Positions 2,394-10,716 of a stretch of DNA of 44,015 nucleotides are shown piece after piece. Position 1 is the stretch's first letter; each line of letters begins with the position of its first letter. The DNA is from Desulforudis sp. (lineage in GTDB: Bacteria; Bacillota; Desulfotomaculia; Desulfotomaculales; Desulforudaceae). Under the pieces are notes generated by a model. That model was not told the DNA's origin, did not search any database, and saw only the letters and a list, made by a program, of their open reading frames with translations. The translations under genes were made by a program, and so were the position numbers. The DNA lies in assembly GCA_003604975.1 (NCBI GenBank), contig QZIR01000068.1, positions 1-44,015 on the forward strand, given 5' to 3'.

Positions 2394-3923
2394 TCACAAC
2401 GTCCATCTATTCAATTGCAGCCCTTTTCTGCGATTACCCTTACGAATCGGATCAGCCACGATGTCAAACCTATAGCCTTCCCTGATCAGTTCCAGGCAGG
2501 CGTCCACCGCCTTGGGATCGTACAGGTTGCCTCTCCCCTGCTGAATCTCCTGTAAGGCTCTATCCAGCCCGAGTGCTTGCCTATAGGGGCGGTGAGAGGT
2601 CATCGCCTCAACGACATCGGCTACCGCCAAGATTCGTGACTCAAGGAGAATATCCGTCCCAATCAGCCCATTGGGATACCCTGACCCGTCAACCCGCTCA
2701 TGGTGCTGCACTACAATATCGGCCACAGGCCACGGGAAATCCACGGTCTTCAGGATGTCATAACCTACTTTGGAGTGCATCTTTATCAAGTTGAACTCGA
2801 TATCGTTCAACCGACCGGGCTTATTGAGGATCTGGGCCGGGACGTAAATCTTTCCCAGGTCGTGAATCAAAGCAGCATAATGCAAACCTTGAACTTGTTC
2901 CTCGGGGAGACCGATTCTCTGCCCGATTGCAGTTGCCAGTAGGGCTACCCGCTTCTGATGTCCGGAGGTGTATGGATCACCGACTTCCACCATCGACATT
3001 ATGGCCCCAATGATCCCTTGCACCATCTGCCGTAATTTCTCTTCACTCCAACGTAAAGCCTCTTCCGCCAGCAATCGTTCCAGTTCAGCCCCGGCCCGCG
3101 CGGCAAAAATCTTGATGATACTGTTTCTCCAGGATTCAGCGTACATCACTTTATCGTCGAACACACACAAATGACCGATCACATGTCCCTGCGAGTTGAT
3201 CAGCGGAGTCCCCAGGAAGCTCTCCGCGCCAAGATTCACCAGTTTCGTGTCCTCGCAGAAAAGCTCTTTCAAACCTTCCGGGTAGTGGCGCCGTTCCCCG
3301 CCGCTGACTACCTGTTCACAGGGGGTTCCCGCAAGAAGGTACTCAAAGTTCTCCCCGTGTTCCTGGCCTGTCCAGAAAGCAAGCGTCCGAGCCCGGGGCG
3401 GGGGTCTATCCACAAACCTGGCCACCAAAGCGTAACGAACCCGCAGCGCGGAAGCAAGATGACTCACAAGTGACCGGAAGAAGTCATCCCCGATTACGGC
3501 AGCTGTCCTCTCAAAAATATCTCTGAATGTCTTTACGGTTTGCCGCTCCATTGCATAACGTATGGAGCGCCCCAGGAGCCTGCTCTCTATCCGACCCTTG
3601 AACAGGTAATCCTGGGCCCCCCCGCGTACCACCCTTTGGGCCATCTCTTCATCGTCCAGACCGGTAAGCACAACAATGGGTATCCAGGGAGCCTGGCCAT
3701 GGACCTTGACAAAGGTGTTGTATCCCACACTGTCCGGTAGCCCCAGGTCTAACAAGATAATATCAAACTGACTCGTACCAAGCCGCTCAAGTCCTGATGA
3801 GAGATCCCGCGTCCACGTCAGCTCAAAGGGGCCTTCTTTGGCATCCTTCAGCTGTTCTTGTATCAAGCGGGCGTCCGCAGGGTTGTCCTCGATAAGCAGA
3901 ATATTGAGACCTTTATCGCCCAA
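2394..3923 (-). CDS. Response regulator with receiver, GAF and HD-GYP domains (c-di-GMP phosphodiesterase)
   Basis: Likely hydrolyses cyclic di-GMP under control of a partner histidine kinase. The receiver covers about residues 6-125, with acidic pocket IEDN and phospho-acceptor Asp59 in IILLDLGLPDS. A GAF-like region follows (about 140-290), then HD-GYP (about 310-480) with HDLGK and HHERVDGSGYPNG, the metal-binding and GYP signatures. Family knowledge assigns such proteins to c-di-GMP breakdown. The start is a TTG at 3923 with GGGAGGATG just upstream. No kinase gene is next to it, so its partner is encoded elsewhere. The gene sits beside a c-di-GMP riboswitch-controlled receptor and a second HD-GYP gene. 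Confidence 0.88.
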   Translation of the reverse strand: MGDKGLNILLIEDNPADARLIQEQLKDAKEGPFELTWTRDLSSGLERLGTSQFDIILLDLGLPDSVGYNTFVKVHGQAPWIPIVVLTGLDDEEMAQRVVRGGAQDYLFKGRIESRLLGRSIRYAMERQTVKTFRDIFERTAAVIGDDFFRSLVSHLASALRVRYALVARFVDRPPPRARTLAFWTGQEHGENFEYLLAGTPCEQVVSGGERRHYPEGLKELFCEDTKLVNLGAESFLGTPLINSQGHVIGHLCVFDDKVMYAESWRNSIIKIFAARAGAELERLLAEEALRWSEEKLRQMVQGIIGAIMSMVEVGDPYTSGHQKRVALLATAIGQRIGLPEEQVQGLHYAALIHDLGKIYVPAQILNKPGRLNDIEFNLIKMHSKVGYDILKTVDFPWPVADIVVQHHERVDGSGYPNGLIGTDILLESRILAVADVVEAMTSHRPYRQALGLDRALQEIQQGRGNLYDPKAVDACLELIREGYRFDIVADPIRKGNRRKGLQLNRWTL

Positions 3924-3985
3924 TCATCATCATCCTCCCATTGACCCACTGATTTGACTTGATATACTTCTATTCAGCAGTTGTT

Positions 3986-4441
3986 TCGACGAAGGATGGA
4001 AACCTGGTGGTCTACCGGGATCAACCGGGCATGCAGGGGCATTACGTACCGCTCTGCGTCTTCGAGGGGATCAGGCCGGATCACGTCCTGGCCCAGGATG
4101 AGATATTCGGCCCGGTATTCTCCATCATCAAGGTCAAGGACTTTACGGAGGCCCTGCAGGTGGCCAACGGGACCCGCTACGCCCTGACCGGAGGCTTGTT
4201 CAGTCGGAGCCCGCAGAACATCGCGCGGGCAAGACGCGAGTTCCGGGTGGGCAACCTCTACATCAACCGCGGCTGCACCGGAGCCATCGTGGAACGGCAT
4301 CCCTTCGGCGGGTTCAAGATGTCCGGGGTCGGTTCAAAGGCCGGAGGCCCGGACTACCTGCTGCAGTTCACCGTTCCACGTGTGGTTGTGGAAAACACCG
4401 TCCGACGCGGATTTGCGCCGGTGGCCGAGGGCGACGAGTAA
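3986..4441 (+). pseudogene. C-terminal fragment of 1-pyrroline-5-carboxylate dehydrogenase (PutA/RocA type)
   Basis: This reads as the last third of an aldehyde dehydrogenase: LAQDEIFGPVFSIIKVKDF, then ALTGGLFSRSPQNI, YINRGCTGAIVERHPFGGFKMSG and GGPDYLLQF, all standard in proline-catabolic P5C dehydrogenases. The NAD-binding half and the catalytic Cys and Glu are missing, and no ribosome site precedes it. It must be inactive. Sequence upstream of about 3986 has no match to the family. A proline dehydrogenase relic on the same strand lies at 6383-6667, so both probably come from one PutA locus, although their order is the reverse of a normal PutA gene. Confidence 0.85.
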
Positions 4442-4460: not shown

Positions 4461-6047
4461 CTAATCAGCCTTACGTATACCGACAACTAAGGAGTTTAGC
4501 TGATCCGCCATCTTTGCCAGCTCATGGGCGGCCGCGGCCATCTCCTGCACTGTGCTATTAACCTCTTCGGACGATGCTGCCAGAGTTTGAACGCCCTGGG
4601 CATTCTGCTGAGTCATTTCCGCAATTTGTTCCGCCCGTTCCGTGCTTGTGCCGGCGCTCTTCACGATGTTTTCCAGAGCCTCGCCCGCCTGCTGGATGAT
4701 CTGGACTCCCTCGTTGACTTCCCCGGACCCGACCTGCATTGCTTCTACGGCTGTGACGGTGTCTTTCTGGATAGCTTTGATAATCTGCTCGATTTCCTTG
4801 GTGGCTTTTGATGATTTCTCCGCGAGTTTACGCACTTCCTCGGCGACCACGGCGAAGCCGCGACCGTGGTCGCCGGCTCGGGCTGCTTCAATGGCTGCGT
4901 TTAAAGCCAGCAGATTAGTCTGGTCGGCAATATCGTTGATAACTTGGATGATCTGCCCGATTTTTACTGACTGTTCGTTTAATTGCTGTACCGATTTAGC
5001 GCTGGAGTTGACGGTGTTTTGAATGGCGCTGATTCTGCTCACGGCTTGCTTGGCAGCTTGTCTTCCAGAGCCAGCAGCGCTCTCCGTAGCTCGGGCCGCA
5101 TCGGCAGCTTCGGCTGCTGTAGCGGATCCTTGCTCCGCAGTTGCAGCCATCTCGGCAGTTGTAGACGTGAGGTTTTCTAAGGCTGCCCCGATGTGTTCAG
5201 AGGAAGCCGAAAGTTCCTGACTGTGCGAGGCCAGCTGTAAGGCGTTATCCTGGACCCTGGCAATTAAGTTATCTAGCTTTTCGGCCAGGTTGTTAAATAC
5301 CTCGCCCAGCTGATTAATCTCATCCTGCCCCCGTACCGGGATACGCTGCTTAAGATCCCCGTCAGCCATTTTCGCGGCGGCCTCCGTCAAAAGGTGCAGA
5401 GGTCGGACCAGGATCCGATTCGACAGCATGATCCAGAGCAGCAAGGCAAGTCCCAGCAACACAAGCGCTGTGGTAATCACCGAGGCATACGCTTGTTGGA
5501 TCATGGTATCTACAAATTCCTTTGAAGCCCCGACATACCAAATACCAATGACCCTACCGTCAGCGTCCCTGATCGGCTCGTAGGCTGTCTGGTACATGGT
5601 GCCGACTACGTTCGCCTCCCCATAATAAGACTCACCCTTTTTCAAGACGGCCTCAGCAACGACATCGCTCACCTTGGTATTTACCGCACGGGAACCGTCA
5701 GGGGTTTTGACATTGGTTGCCACCCGGGTGTCGCCCCGGAAGATGGTTACCGTGTCACCGGTAAGCTCACCGATCAAGTCGACAACACCATAATTGTCGT
5801 TCATCAGCACATCGCCCTTAAATAGGTTCTCTCCTTCCAGCCGCCAGGCACCAGGGTAAGTCACGTCAATGATCTGCCGGCCGGTGGCCAGATCGCTCTT
5901 GGCCTTCTCCACCGCGGCGTCGGTGGCCCCAGTGGTAATCAGCCCGATCACCACGTACAAAATGATGCTACTCAACAGCAAAACAAGCCCCAGAAACAAG
6001 GCCCCCAATTTGTGCTTAACGGAGAGGGCACGATTTTTCAGCACCAC
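4461..6047 (-). CDS. Methyl-accepting chemotaxis protein with a Cache sensor domain
   Basis: A membrane receptor feeding CheA/CheW. TM1 is at about 13-36, followed by an extracytoplasmic single-Cache domain to about 185 ([20 protein letters not shown] is typical of this Cache class), TM2 at about 189-210, HAMP, then a long coiled-coil signalling domain. The hairpin tip has the near-invariant [19 protein letters not shown] followed by [16 protein letters not shown] ends at 6054 and directly abuts a TTG at 6053, so the GTG at 6047 (or 6044) is the better start. The leader of about 200 bases carries a c-di-GMP riboswitch and a terminator, so receptor synthesis is probably tied to c-di-GMP. Ligand unknown. 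Confidence 0.92.
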
Positions 6048-6127
6048 ACTCAACTCCTTAAATCAAATATTAAAAACCAGAAGCTGGATAAACTTGCTGT
6101 GGATCAAATTGGGTACCGTACACCTGC

Positions 6128-6165
6128 AAAACAACAAACCCCGCCACCAGCCTGTGCGAGGTTTG
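6128..6165 (-). terminator. Intrinsic terminator of the riboswitch expression platform
   Basis: On the minus strand CAAACCTCGC pairs with GCGGGGTTTG (10 bp, one G-U), followed by TTGTTTT. It begins immediately after the last aptamer helix strand and lies about 80 bases before the receptor start, the usual place for a transcription-control platform. Confidence 0.8.
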
Positions 6166-6255
6166 CACGGTAACTGGCTGGCATAGTAGCTCATCACCAC
6201 CTTAGCCCCTGTAGCTTTGCGCCCCCGGCTTTCGCCGAGTTTGCCTTTATTCGTG
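6166..6255 (-). promoter_or_regulatory. Cyclic di-GMP-I (GEMM) riboswitch aptamer
   Basis: Read on the minus strand, the leader has the GEMM-I layout: AAAGGCAAAC, a GAAA tetraloop closing the first hairpin (CGGCGAAAGCCG), then GGGCGCAAAGCTACAGGGGC, a variable second hairpin, and GCCAGCCAGTTACCG. CACG (6255-6252) can pair with CGTG (6169-6166) as the closing helix. The base before CAAAC is G. If it aligns with position G20 of the Vibrio Vc2 aptamer, it favours c-di-GMP over cyclic AMP-GMP; that alignment is my inference. The class is known to control chemotaxis and motility genes. The sequence does not decide whether the switch is ON or OFF. Confidence 0.85.
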
Positions 6256-6260
6256 TCTAC

Positions 6261-6266
6261 ATTATA
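6261..6266 (-). promoter_or_regulatory. -10 box of the riboswitch/chemoreceptor transcript
   Basis: A perfect TATAAT on the minus strand lies six bases before the closing helix of the aptamer, so the transcript would start at the aptamer. No good TTGACA-like -35 is visible 16-18 bases upstream. Confidence 0.55.
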
Positions 6267-6382
6267 CGACACATAGGTAAAAATTCCTACCCTTTTGGGT
6301 CCATTTTCCTATATTTTTCGCCTGTCAAGACCGGTTTAGAAATTACCGCATTTAGCATACGGGAGGCAGCAAAAGAAGGTTT

Positions 6383-6667
6383 GGTGGCACCGAAAAGAGG
6401 ATCCTGAACACCCTGAACACCGCTCGGCACCAATGGACGGTCCTGCGCAGCGCACAAGGTGATCTGGACTGGAGCCACTCCCCCAAGTCAACGTCTCGAT
6501 CAAACCCTCGGCAATGTACTCCCAGATGAACCCCAAGGCGTTTGAGCATTCGATCGAGATGGCCAAGAACCGGTTACGGCCGCTTCCGCAAGGCCGTTGA
6601 AATGAAGGCCTTTGTGATGCTGGACATGGAGTACACGGCCTTGAAAAACATCACCCCTTTCCTATAA
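6383..6667 (+). pseudogene. Frameshifted proline dehydrogenase (PutA type) fragment
   Basis: Three reading-frame pieces join into one recognisable stretch of a PutA-like proline dehydrogenase: QWTVLRSAQGDLDWSHSPK, then VNVSIKPSAMYSQMNP continuing through KAFEHSIEMAKNRLRPL, then RKAVEMKAFVMLDMEYTALK. One base is lost near 6486 and the frame shifts again (net -2 or +1) near 6585. TAA at 6665 ends the last piece. The substrate-binding C-terminal barrel strands are missing. It lies on the same strand as the P5C dehydrogenase fragment at 3986-4441 but to its right, whereas this domain is N-terminal in PutA, so the locus was rearranged as well as eroded. Confidence 0.75.
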
Positions 6668-6806: not shown

Positions 6807-8801
6807 ATGGGGGACTTTGGACGGCGACATAAGCAATTGTTAGAAATCGCTGTTAGTCTGGCCCAGGAACTGGATCAGGAGATGGTTGTTTATTTATTGA
6901 AGAAGGCTGTACTGGACCTGATGGAATGTCACCAGGTTGTGATCGGCTTACGGTCCGACCCTGACAGCCCCACACTTACCTATATTTGTGACGGAAAGCT
7001 GGATCCTGCTCTCGCGTCGGAGCGGACTTTTATGCCAATCGTGGAGCAGGTAATGGCCAGCGGCTCCTCAGTGGTAATCGCTGATTACGGGCCTCCCCAA
7101 TCGACCCCTGAGAAGTCCCCCGCAACAGCCGCATGTAACGTAGCGGCGGTTCCCCTGGAGTCCGGCAGCGGTATTCACGGCATCGTTCTGGCAGTGTCCA
7201 TAACCCCTGGTTACGCGTACACTGCAGATGACCTGGGCATCTTGAAAACACTTGGCAGATTGGCTGGGGAAGCGTTCACAAGGGCTCTTCAGCTTTCGAA
7301 ATACCGTCGCCGCGATGAAGAATACCAAATAATCTGTGAACTTGCGCCACTAGGAATCTATAAAGCAAACGAAAAAGGAACGATGGTTTTACTTAATCCA
7401 TCTGCACGGTTTTTGCGTGGTCATCCGGTTAGTTGGGATGAGGTCGATCAAGGTTGGGGACACTCCGTCTTTCCAGACGATTTGGACCAAGTATGCCGTG
7501 AAATCGAGCAGAGAATCGTCGCCCGAGAACCGTGGACTTTACACTACCGGGCTATCGACTCCACCGGTGAAATCCGTCACATCGTGGATACGTCGGTCCC
7601 ATTTACGGGAGTACGAGGTGAGACCGGTCGTGTGGGCTACCTGGCTGATAACAATCAGCAGGTACAATTCGAGCGTGAAGCCCGCCGCCAGTCGTCCTTA
7701 CTCCAGCTCATGTTCGAATTGGGACAAATAATCCTTGACAGCCAGAACCAGGAGAGCATCTTTCAGCAATGCTGCGAACAGATATCGTCGAGGCTTGAGC
7801 TGCCACTGGTGGGATTGGTTGAGAAGTCTCAAGAGTCGAAACCGTCTATCCTGTCTTTCTGCGGACCACCCGGGGGAGAGGAAGCCTTGCTATCCCTGAC
7901 ATCCAGCGTATTCCACGGTAGCATCCAGACGCAGGGTGTTTTTCTCCACGTTACCCACACGCACCTGGCCGTATGGCAGCAGCTCAGTGCACAGGAGAAC
8001 CTGGGGACTCTGGCTCTACTGCCGCTGATCGCTGACGATCAGCCCTTAGGTCTTTTAGCTGCTGCCAACTATTTCGGGGCCGACCCGCGGGACGGCTTTG
8101 AAGAAACGATCACGTCCCTCAGTGTTTTCCTGGCGATGGCCCTGGCACGGCGGCAGGTTCAGTTGGAGTTGCAGCGATCATTCAGATACCTGGTGCGAAT
8201 CCTGGCCAGAGCTGCTGAGGCTAACGATGACGCTGACGACCGCCATGTCGAACGGGTTGGCGACTACAGTGCCCTGTTAGCCGCAGAAGTGGGTTCAACT
8301 GCCGCCTTTGTGGAAGACGTCCGCCTTTTTGCCCAGCTTCACGACGTGGGGAAGGCCCTAGTACCACCGCAGATTCTGCACCGGGCACGGGTGATTGGCG
8401 AGGAAGAGCAAGCTATTATCCGTTCCCATACTATACACGGAGCCCATATTCTGGAGGAATGGCCCTTACTTGATATGGCCCGGGATATTGCCTTATTCCA
8501 TCATGAACATTGGGACGGCAGTGGGTACCCATACGGTCTGAGGCGCGAGGAGATCCCCTTGGCTGCTCGTATTGTCCACCTCGCCGATGTGTACGACACT
8601 TTACGCAGCTATCGTCCAGGCGGACATGCATTAACGCATGAGGAAGCGGTAGCTGTGATCCTGCAGGGCAATGACGAGATCCGCCGGGAGCATTTTGATC
8701 CCGGACTGCTGGAAGCGTTTGCGAGGAAATCCTCGGAAATGTCTCGGATTTACGAGGCCGCTTCGTTGGTCCAACCGTCAGACAAATATCTGCTTATCTA
8801 G
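6807..8801 (+). CDS. GAF-PAS-GAF-HD-GYP protein (c-di-GMP phosphodiesterase)
   Basis: A 664-aa soluble sensor enzyme that probably hydrolyses c-di-GMP. A first GAF domain covers about residues 10-150, a PAS domain with the PAC-like end YLADNNQQVQFE lies at about 170-290, a second GAF at about 295-450, and HD-GYP at about 465-640. The catalytic motifs are complete: LHDVGKALVPPQ and HHEHWDGSGYPYG. No transmembrane segment is seen, so its signal is cytoplasmic. The ATG at 6807 follows GGGGG by eight bases. The FapA-like gene starts 28 bases after its stop, suggesting one transcript. Upstream lies only a decayed putA piece. Confidence 0.88.
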   Translation: MGDFGRRHKQLLEIAVSLAQELDQEMVVYLLKKAVLDLMECHQVVIGLRSDPDSPTLTYICDGKLDPALASERTFMPIVEQVMASGSSVVIADYGPPQSTPEKSPATAACNVAAVPLESGSGIHGIVLAVSITPGYAYTADDLGILKTLGRLAGEAFTRALQLSKYRRRDEEYQIICELAPLGIYKANEKGTMVLLNPSARFLRGHPVSWDEVDQGWGHSVFPDDLDQVCREIEQRIVAREPWTLHYRAIDSTGEIRHIVDTSVPFTGVRGETGRVGYLADNNQQVQFEREARRQSSLLQLMFELGQIILDSQNQESIFQQCCEQISSRLELPLVGLVEKSQESKPSILSFCGPPGGEEALLSLTSSVFHGSIQTQGVFLHVTHTHLAVWQQLSAQENLGTLALLPLIADDQPLGLLAAANYFGADPRDGFEETITSLSVFLAMALARRQVQLELQRSFRYLVRILARAAEANDDADDRHVERVGDYSALLAAEVGSTAAFVEDVRLFAQLHDVGKALVPPQILHRARVIGEEEQAIIRSHTIHGAHILEEWPLLDMARDIALFHHEHWDGSGYPYGLRREEIPLAARIVHLADVYDTLRSYRPGGHALTHEEAVAVILQGNDEIRREHFDPGLLEAFARKSSEMSRIYEAASLVQPSDKYLLI

Positions 8802-8829: not shown

Positions 8830-10716
8830 ATGAGCGACCTGGAGTTAGACCGGCTCTTAGCCGAAGTCCTCAATGACAGTCCTAAAACCGATACCCCACA
8901 GGATCGTCGTCCTGACCGGCAGTCACAGGAGGATAAGCTTGTCTCTGAGGATGCTCCCGGTTTGGTCGGGGTGAGGAACGGGCAGATCTGGGTACAAAAC
9001 CCAAGGAATGACGGATCCCCGGCCAAATTGGTCCCTTCCGGGTTAAAAATCCTGGTTAACGGCGTTGTCATTAAAGAAACCGTATATCTACACGAGAGTG
9101 ACCAGATTACATACGAACCACGCATAGATCTGGTCCCACCCCGTGTCGAAGTCATAAAGAGCCCGAATAATCTACTCGCTTACATTACCATTGCCTATGG
9201 GCAACGTATCGAACATATCCTTGATGATCAGGAACCAAAGAAACTCATCACCCTGGCGACCAAAGCCATCCCCCACCCCACCGAGCCACCCACTTTCGCA
9301 CAGATAGTAGCGGCATTGGAGCGGGCAGGCGTGAGTCACGGGATCGACCAAACATCCCTCTCCCAGTTATCTCGGGAACTACGGGAGGGACGGTTTGTGA
9401 TTGCCCGTGGAACCCCGCCGGGACTGTCAACAGACGAAACCGTCGAAATCCTTTTTAGCGAAAACGAGGCCGTTGTCCAGCAGAACAAACATGGTAATGT
9501 GGATTACCGGGAAAGACGGCGTTTATCCACGGTGGACAAGGGTACGGTCCTGGCCCGCAAGCTTCCGGGGCAGCCGGGGAGCCCGGGGTTAGGTGTGACT
9601 GGAGAGATAATCCTCCCCATTCCGCCAAAGCTGGTCTATTTGGTCTGTGGTTCTGGTACCGCTTTGCAGGCCGGAGGGTCAGAGGTGGTTGCCACTAAAG
9701 CGGGTCAACCCTCCTTTGAGGCCCAGAGCCATACCTATACTTTCCGGGTGAGCCCGGTCCTGCATATAGCAGGAAATGTTGACCTGGAATCAAGTAACGT
9801 GCGGTTCGAGGGCAGCATCGACATACGCGGCGATGTTAAGCCTGGAATGATTGTGTTCAGCGGCGCCGATTTGTTTGTCGGCGGTAGCATCGAAAAAGCC
9901 CAGGTCGGCGCCTTTGGGTCGATCCGGATCCGTGGCGCGGTAATCAATGGCACCATCACTGCCGGGTACCCAAACGTCACTGCCTTTCAGGAAGTGGCCG
10001 AAGACCTAAACAAGGTATTGAGAGAGATGGGGGCCTTGATAAGTACTCTCCAACAAATCTATAGTAACCCCTCCATGTCCCGTGTGACGATCGATTTTGC
10101 CCAGTTGCTTCAAAGGGTAATCGACATGCGTTTCAGGAATCTCCCCTCTTCGGTAACCGGTCTGCTGGCCCACCTGCGGCACATCATAAACATGTTGCCG
10201 GAGAATGTGCGGGTTAACCTGGCAGACTTGGAGTACTATTTCGACGGGATTAATCTATTGCGCATGAAGAATCTTGACCAGTTGCAGACACTGTATAAGA
10301 ACTTCAGTCACGCCATCACATGCGTCCACCAAAAAGACCCTAAACCGTCAAACCTGTTGCTGTTGTCGGCGATGAATAGCAAGCTGAGGGCCTCTGGAGA
10401 AGTCACGATCGCCGGTGAGGGCTGCTATGCCACACAGGTGGATGCGGGAGGGAATATAACCGTTGCCAAAACGGTTCGCGGTGGTTACGCTATTTCGGAT
10501 GGAGGAGCGGTTACCATCGGTGAGGCGGGTTCGGAAATGGGAGTAACCACCCTGGTCCGGGTGGCAGCCCATAACCTCGTTAAAATCGAACGGGCTCATC
10601 CGGGAGTCCATGTCTATGTCGGCTCCCAGAAGTTTGACGTCACAGAGGAGGTCGTCTGCTTAAGAGTATTTCAAGATCCTCAGGGTAACTTAAAATCGAA
10701 TTATCGGGTGCTTTGA
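8830..10716 (+). CDS. FapA / DUF342 family protein with beta-helix repeats
   Basis: A 628-aa protein of the DUF342 family, now called FapA (flagellar assembly protein A). Family work links it to envelope and flagellar assembly and polysaccharide-type regulation; the molecular activity is not settled. The N-terminal part is variable. Residues of about 320-410 form the typical glycine-rich beta-helix (IDIRGDVKPGMIVFSGADLF, then GGSIEKAQVGAFGSIRIRG), followed by a helical insert and a second short helix block (AGGNITVAKTVRGGYAISDG). The start is the ATG at 8830 just after the upstream stop; longer in-frame readings overlap the HD-GYP gene. Only a weak AAAG ribosome site is seen, so translation may depend on the upstream gene. 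Confidence 0.85.
   Translation: MSDLELDRLLAEVLNDSPKTDTPQDRRPDRQSQEDKLVSEDAPGLVGVRNGQIWVQNPRNDGSPAKLVPSGLKILVNGVVIKETVYLHESDQITYEPRIDLVPPRVEVIKSPNNLLAYITIAYGQRIEHILDDQEPKKLITLATKAIPHPTEPPTFAQIVAALERAGVSHGIDQTSLSQLSRELREGRFVIARGTPPGLSTDETVEILFSENEAVVQQNKHGNVDYRERRRLSTVDKGTVLARKLPGQPGSPGLGVTGEIILPIPPKLVYLVCGSGTALQAGGSEVVATKAGQPSFEAQSHTYTFRVSPVLHIAGNVDLESSNVRFEGSIDIRGDVKPGMIVFSGADLFVGGSIEKAQVGAFGSIRIRGAVINGTITAGYPNVTAFQEVAEDLNKVLREMGALISTLQQIYSNPSMSRVTIDFAQLLQRVIDMRFRNLPSSVTGLLAHLRHIINMLPENVRVNLADLEYYFDGINLLRMKNLDQLQTLYKNFSHAITCVHQKDPKPSNLLLLSAMNSKLRASGEVTIAGEGCYATQVDAGGNITVAKTVRGGYAISDGGAVTIGEAGSEMGVTTLVRVAAHNLVKIERAHPGVHVYVGSQKFDVTEEVVCLRVFQDPQGNLKSNYRVL

Follow-up and report, generated by a model that had tools for sequence, protein, structure and literature searches.

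That c-di-GMP-I riboswitches lie upstream of MCP genes is already known from Bc1 of Bacillus thuringiensis (B. cereus group), which is found 5' of mcpE and acts as an ON switch (PMC11218506). Akin to the locus analysed here, which lies in a window of 44,015 nucleotides from Desulforudis sp. (contig QZIR01000068.1), Bc1 combines a c-di-GMP-I aptamer in the 5' UTR of an MCP gene with intrinsic termination (PMC11218506). As opposed to Bc1, an ON switch whose long platform contains two terminators, the window copy has one terminator abutting the aptamer and is predicted to be OFF. Its layout resembles that of Cd1 from Clostridioides difficile, a tested OFF switch in which a c-di-GMP-I aptamer is followed by a terminator compatible with it, while an antiterminator competes with both (PMC9262584); Cd1, however, targets flagellar genes and its OFF direction has been tested, whereas the target in the window is a chemoreceptor and OFF is predicted. 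The same RNA family is also described from the same bacterial family, in Candidatus Desulforudis audaxviator (CP000860.1, c(1860063-1860186)), where a riboswitch with a terminator downstream has been modelled as kinetically controlled (PMC3974018, PMC3280964). That riboswitch differs from ours in locus and platform, and precedes a flgB-like gene. By eye, the “tfoX riboswitch” of PMC3974018 (G004:C1:1860097-1860186) is directly 5' of this flgB-like gene, and the same arrangement of riboswitch and flgB-like gene is seen in a further genome (G006).

Across the class, GEMM-I is present in 97 of 113 genomes, with up to 16 copies each, and a relative in the same order (L171) has another GEMM-I/MCP pair; the positions of receptor orthologues in other genera never coincide with GEMM-I positions. 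Tandem c-di-GMP-I riboswitches, each with an apparent terminator, were observed in a related genus before a Flp-pilin-like gene (G001:C5:898-1163) and, again in a related genus, before a secreted-protein-like gene (G005:C39:1543-1796).

Aptamer, terminator and receptor gene

The elements of the locus and the neighbouring genes are the following.

6166–6255, minus strand: c-di-GMP-I (GEMM-I) aptamer (RF01051, 75.4 bits)
6245, minus strand: specificity base G, equivalent to Vc2 G20 (model position 11), from the cmscan alignment
6135–6165, minus strand: intrinsic terminator hairpin with a 10-bp stem, CAAACCUCGC/GCGGGGUUUG, from folding and a further search
6126–6134, minus strand: U-rich tail UUGUUUUGC, read from the sequence
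6054–6059, minus strand: good Shine-Dalgarno sequence AAGGAG, read from the sequence
4461–6047, minus strand: chemoreceptor gene (sCache_3, HAMP and MCPsignal), from profile matches
2394–3923, minus strand: neighbouring gene for a response-regulator HD-GYP protein with HDLGK and HHERVDGSGYP, from profile and motifs
6807–8801, plus strand: neighbouring gene for a GAF-PAS-HD-GYP protein with HDVGK and HHEHWDGSGYP, from profile and motifs

The original prediction had described a complete GEMM-I aptamer, leaving the strand unstated, and had named a search with the Rfam GEMM-I covariance model as one way to check it, with the lack of a hit as a refutation. This search (cmscan) matched the minus strand from 6255 to 6166 to RF01051 over model positions 1–87 of 87, well above the gathering score of 35 bits (E 3.8e-13), and the aptamer was the sole Rfam match in the 44-kb window. 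In the cmscan alignment the GNRA tetraloop is present as GAAA in the first hairpin, and so is the tetraloop receptor, with the segment CUAAGG...CUAUG aligning to the consensus. A terminator directly after the aptamer, likewise predicted, is borne out: the hairpin begins at the base next to the aptamer end (6165 versus 6166), and the interval 6124–6166 has a folding energy of -18.2 kcal/mol compared to -11.6 for shuffles (z -3.0), with 2 of 200 shuffles equalling it. A simple terminator scan did not list the hairpin at 6165–6135, probably owing to its 11-nt loop, as the scan is limited to loops of 8.

The next gene on the transcript, starting 118 nt after the aptamer, encodes a Cache_3-HAMP-MCPsignal protein (sCache_3_3, 1.6e-38; HAMP, 8.1e-16; MCPsignal, 9.9e-47), which supports the earlier proposal of a c-di-GMP riboswitch driving a Cache chemoreceptor, a proposal that had left the direction open. 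Its start codon is most likely the GTG at 6047; an alternative TTG at 6053, given in the list of open reading frames, abuts the Shine-Dalgarno sequence. As judged from its sequence, the locus is thus an ordinary, well-formed c-di-GMP-I riboswitch upstream of a chemoreceptor gene. The HD-GYP proteins encoded on either side have intact motifs and are probably c-di-GMP phosphodiesterases. The genome contains four CheW-domain matches, one of them within a possible CheA frame of 740 aa, as well as flagellin, so that flagellar chemotaxis is plausible. It also holds two further GEMM-I copies, one of which, by eye, precedes a prepilin peptidase-like gene.

Other frames were noted nearby. A FapA-family protein gene (8833–10716, plus strand) lies directly 3' of the GAF-PAS-HD-GYP gene. 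Between the receptor and HD-GYP genes, a 160-aa frame (3959–4441, plus strand) corresponds to the last ~135 residues only of an L-glutamate gamma-semialdehyde dehydrogenase (TIGR01237, 375–510 of 511) and is, going by this match, a gene remnant. A 45-aa fragment (6463–6600, plus strand) that looked proline dehydrogenase-like by eye gave no Pfam or NCBIfam match and is not claimed.

Ligand specificity

The key specificity base is G, not A, as had been predicted; the equivalence of model position 11 to Vc2 G20 is our own mapping from published residue lists. Each of the 52 family and class aptamers in the comparison likewise has G there. The genome encodes 18 GGDEF domains, every one with Asp at the selectivity position (GHxxGD in 15, G[FL]xxGD in 3) and none with the Ser of Hypr enzymes, and hence no Hypr-type GGDEF cyclase was found among them. 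Because position 20 is G and Asp is present in all 18 GGDEF domains, c-di-GMP is likely to be the ligand of the window aptamer. The reason to consider an aptamer that binds cGAMP (GEMM-Ib), or one with an otherwise altered ligand, is that GEMM-Ib has the same fold as c-di-GMP riboswitches and was first annotated as such (PMC9262584). The base at position 20 argues against it, all the more as an A20G change makes a Geobacter cGAMP aptamer recognise c-di-GMP instead (PMC6456294), and so does the GGDEF survey; on these two grounds we rejected cGAMP specificity, and we regard a GEMM-Ib or altered-ligand aptamer as very improbable.

Alternative folds and the predicted direction of the switch

Since the aptamer (6255–6166) and the terminator (6165–6135) share no bases, the two can coexist. 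The only strong alternative pairing that was found disrupts both together: the aptamer 3' strand GCCA-CCAGUU can pair with GGCUGGUGGC, enclosing a GUGC/GCAC hairpin. Folding defined its parts as follows.

6172–6182, minus strand: aptamer 3' strand GCCAGCCAGUU, which pairs in the antiterminator
6154–6168, minus strand: nested antiterminator hairpin GUGC-AAACCUC-GCAC, overlapping the terminator 5' strand
6143–6152, minus strand: antiterminator 3' strand GGCUGGUGGC, drawn from the terminator loop and the start of the terminator 3' stem

Stepwise folding of the growing transcript yielded the aptamer up to ~108 nt, the antiterminator as the minimum at 111–114 nt, and aptamer plus terminator from 117 nt onwards. 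For the ligand-free window copy at full length, the minimum is aptamer plus terminator (-48.0 kcal/mol), compared to -42.7 to -44.6 kcal/mol when the antiterminator is forced in one register; with the terminated form as the full-length minimum, the switch would therefore have to rely on folding order. The 60 nt that follow the aptamer are more complementary to its last 24 nt than are 96% of the platforms swapped in from other riboswitches; across the whole set of 52 riboswitches, this swap test gave a weak signal (mean rank 0.43, z 1.7). With random terminators of the same composition, a competing fold was favoured to the same degree 129 times in 400 for the window copy (84 in 400 for the sister-species copy); the antiterminator is therefore not provable by folding energy alone.

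The riboswitch copy of the sister species (G007-C89) is 86% identical to that of the window. Both alternative folds are retained in it with a shifted register of the terminator stem, and in stepwise folding the antiterminator is the minimum at lengths around termination. Synteny is the same and the riboswitch and terminator are retained, but the receptor is absent save for 80 nt of its 3' part (L082, 3608–3835 of G007:C89; 97.5% identical to window 4562–4641). This remnant directly follows the terminator and is itself followed by a PAS-HD-GYP gene that is seemingly truncated at its start; the loss of the receptor may reflect a deletion or a misassembly.

In light of the Cd1-like layout, in which the terminator loop can pair with the aptamer 3' strand, we propose that the Cache chemoreceptor is under the transcriptional control of a class-I c-di-GMP riboswitch acting as an OFF switch, and give this reading a probability of roughly 0.7; the direction as such is a modest prediction, favoured by the anatomy on moderate evidence. 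RNA polymerase would initiate just 5' of the aptamer. While c-di-GMP is low, the aptamer 3' strand would capture the emerging GGCUGGUGGC with the small hairpin nested within, and this antiterminator would prevent the terminator stem from forming, such that transcription continues into the receptor gene. When c-di-GMP is high, the ligand would lock the aptamer first and make its 3' strand unavailable, whereupon the terminator would form and transcription would end ahead of the receptor gene. Read-through at low c-di-GMP would mean that the receptor is made in the motile, low-c-di-GMP state.

The same riboswitch and ligand could also act in the opposite sense, with c-di-GMP disfavouring the terminator and raising receptor expression as in Bc1, a GEMM-I element that is also 5' of an MCP gene and activates a reporter (PMC11218506); that the window copy has the terminated form as its full-length minimum without ligand agrees with such an ON switch. 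A pilM-type ON switch, however, requires aptamer and terminator to be mutually exclusive (PMC9262584), whereas here they are adjacent and non-overlapping, and the sole strong alternative pairing destroys both at once, so that we consider the ON direction unlikely. The preference of the window copy for termination without ligand would equally suit an RNA that by now serves chiefly as a sponge, or persists as a relic, in the form of a short c-di-GMP-binding transcript ending at the terminator, with the receptor expressed largely independently. A gene-less, highly expressed c-di-GMP riboswitch RNA is known from Bdellovibrio (PMC3627812), and the sister-species assembly has kept riboswitch and terminator with the receptor gone. 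Yet the gap in that assembly is possibly a misassembly, and the receptor gene of the window is intact and co-oriented at its short distance downstream, with no predicted sigma-70 promoter between it and the riboswitch, which renders a sponge or relic quite improbable.

Promoter-like elements upstream of the riboswitch

Three elements were read from the sequence upstream of the aptamer.

6282–6290, minus strand: sigma-H-like -35 element GTAGGAATT, fitting RnAGGAwWW
6264–6270, minus strand: sigma-H-like -10 element GTCGTAT, spaced 11 nt from the -35 element and differing from RnnGAAT at one base
6261–6266, minus strand: TATAAT, the -10 of the original prediction, without a matching -35

The TATAAT at 6266–6261 is five bases upstream of the first aptamer base, and a transcript would therefore begin at the aptamer; in this respect the original placement holds. 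It does not hold as a clear sigma-70 promoter: we looked for both hexamers at a spacing of 16–18 nt, and the best -35 (TAGGAA, 17 nt away) matches at only 3 of 6 positions, while a sigma-70 scan lists no promoter at 6266–6261.

The sigma-H-like element overlaps the TATAAT region. Sigma-H is Spo0H, the sigma factor of the transition to stationary phase and sporulation. In the strict test, which followed the consensus RNAGGAWWW / RNNGAAT (PMC8510167) with 11–12 nt between the two parts, the window copy is not a match: the -35 element and spacing fit, and GTAT replaces GAAT. In the sister species the -35 element is identical and the whole block, GTAGGAATT-N11-ATCGAAT, matches the sigma-H consensus in full, with AATAAT in place of TATAAT. 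Perfect sigma-H elements are also present upstream of the riboswitch of an HD-domain gene in G004, which is D. audaxviator going by the published coordinates of its other riboswitch, and of its orthologue in G003. Strict elements thus lie 5' of 3 of 52 riboswitches (two independent loci), compared to a mean of 0.016 for dinucleotide shuffles, of which 2 in 3000 gave at least two strict matches; the motif had been spotted by eye before this statistical test. A looser pattern has 49 genome-wide occurrences versus 8 for a reversed control, sigH is present in 8 of 8 family genomes, and among the papers searched none linked sigma-H with c-di-GMP riboswitches. Because the motif was seen by eye first, only two of the three loci count as independent and the window copy is not strict, we treat sigma-H as a lead: it is possible, though we put it forward tentatively, that some c-di-GMP-I riboswitches of the Desulforudis family are transcribed from sigma-H promoters, in which case their genes would answer to a starvation-stage sigma factor as well as to c-di-GMP. 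Separately, the flgB-type riboswitches of G002, G003, G004 and G006 have a common upstream block resembling AAGGGAAA..TGTRCCA..GGAGAAAA, which may be another alternative-sigma promoter.

Taken together, the predictions added at this locus are an OFF direction for the switch and a possible sigma-H promoter, both of them modest. The c-di-GMP regulon of a bacterium of the Desulforudis family gains a likely chemoreceptor, with probable HD-GYP phosphodiesterase genes on both sides, and if the sigma-H link is true, c-di-GMP would converge on a single transcript with the onset of stationary phase or sporulation.
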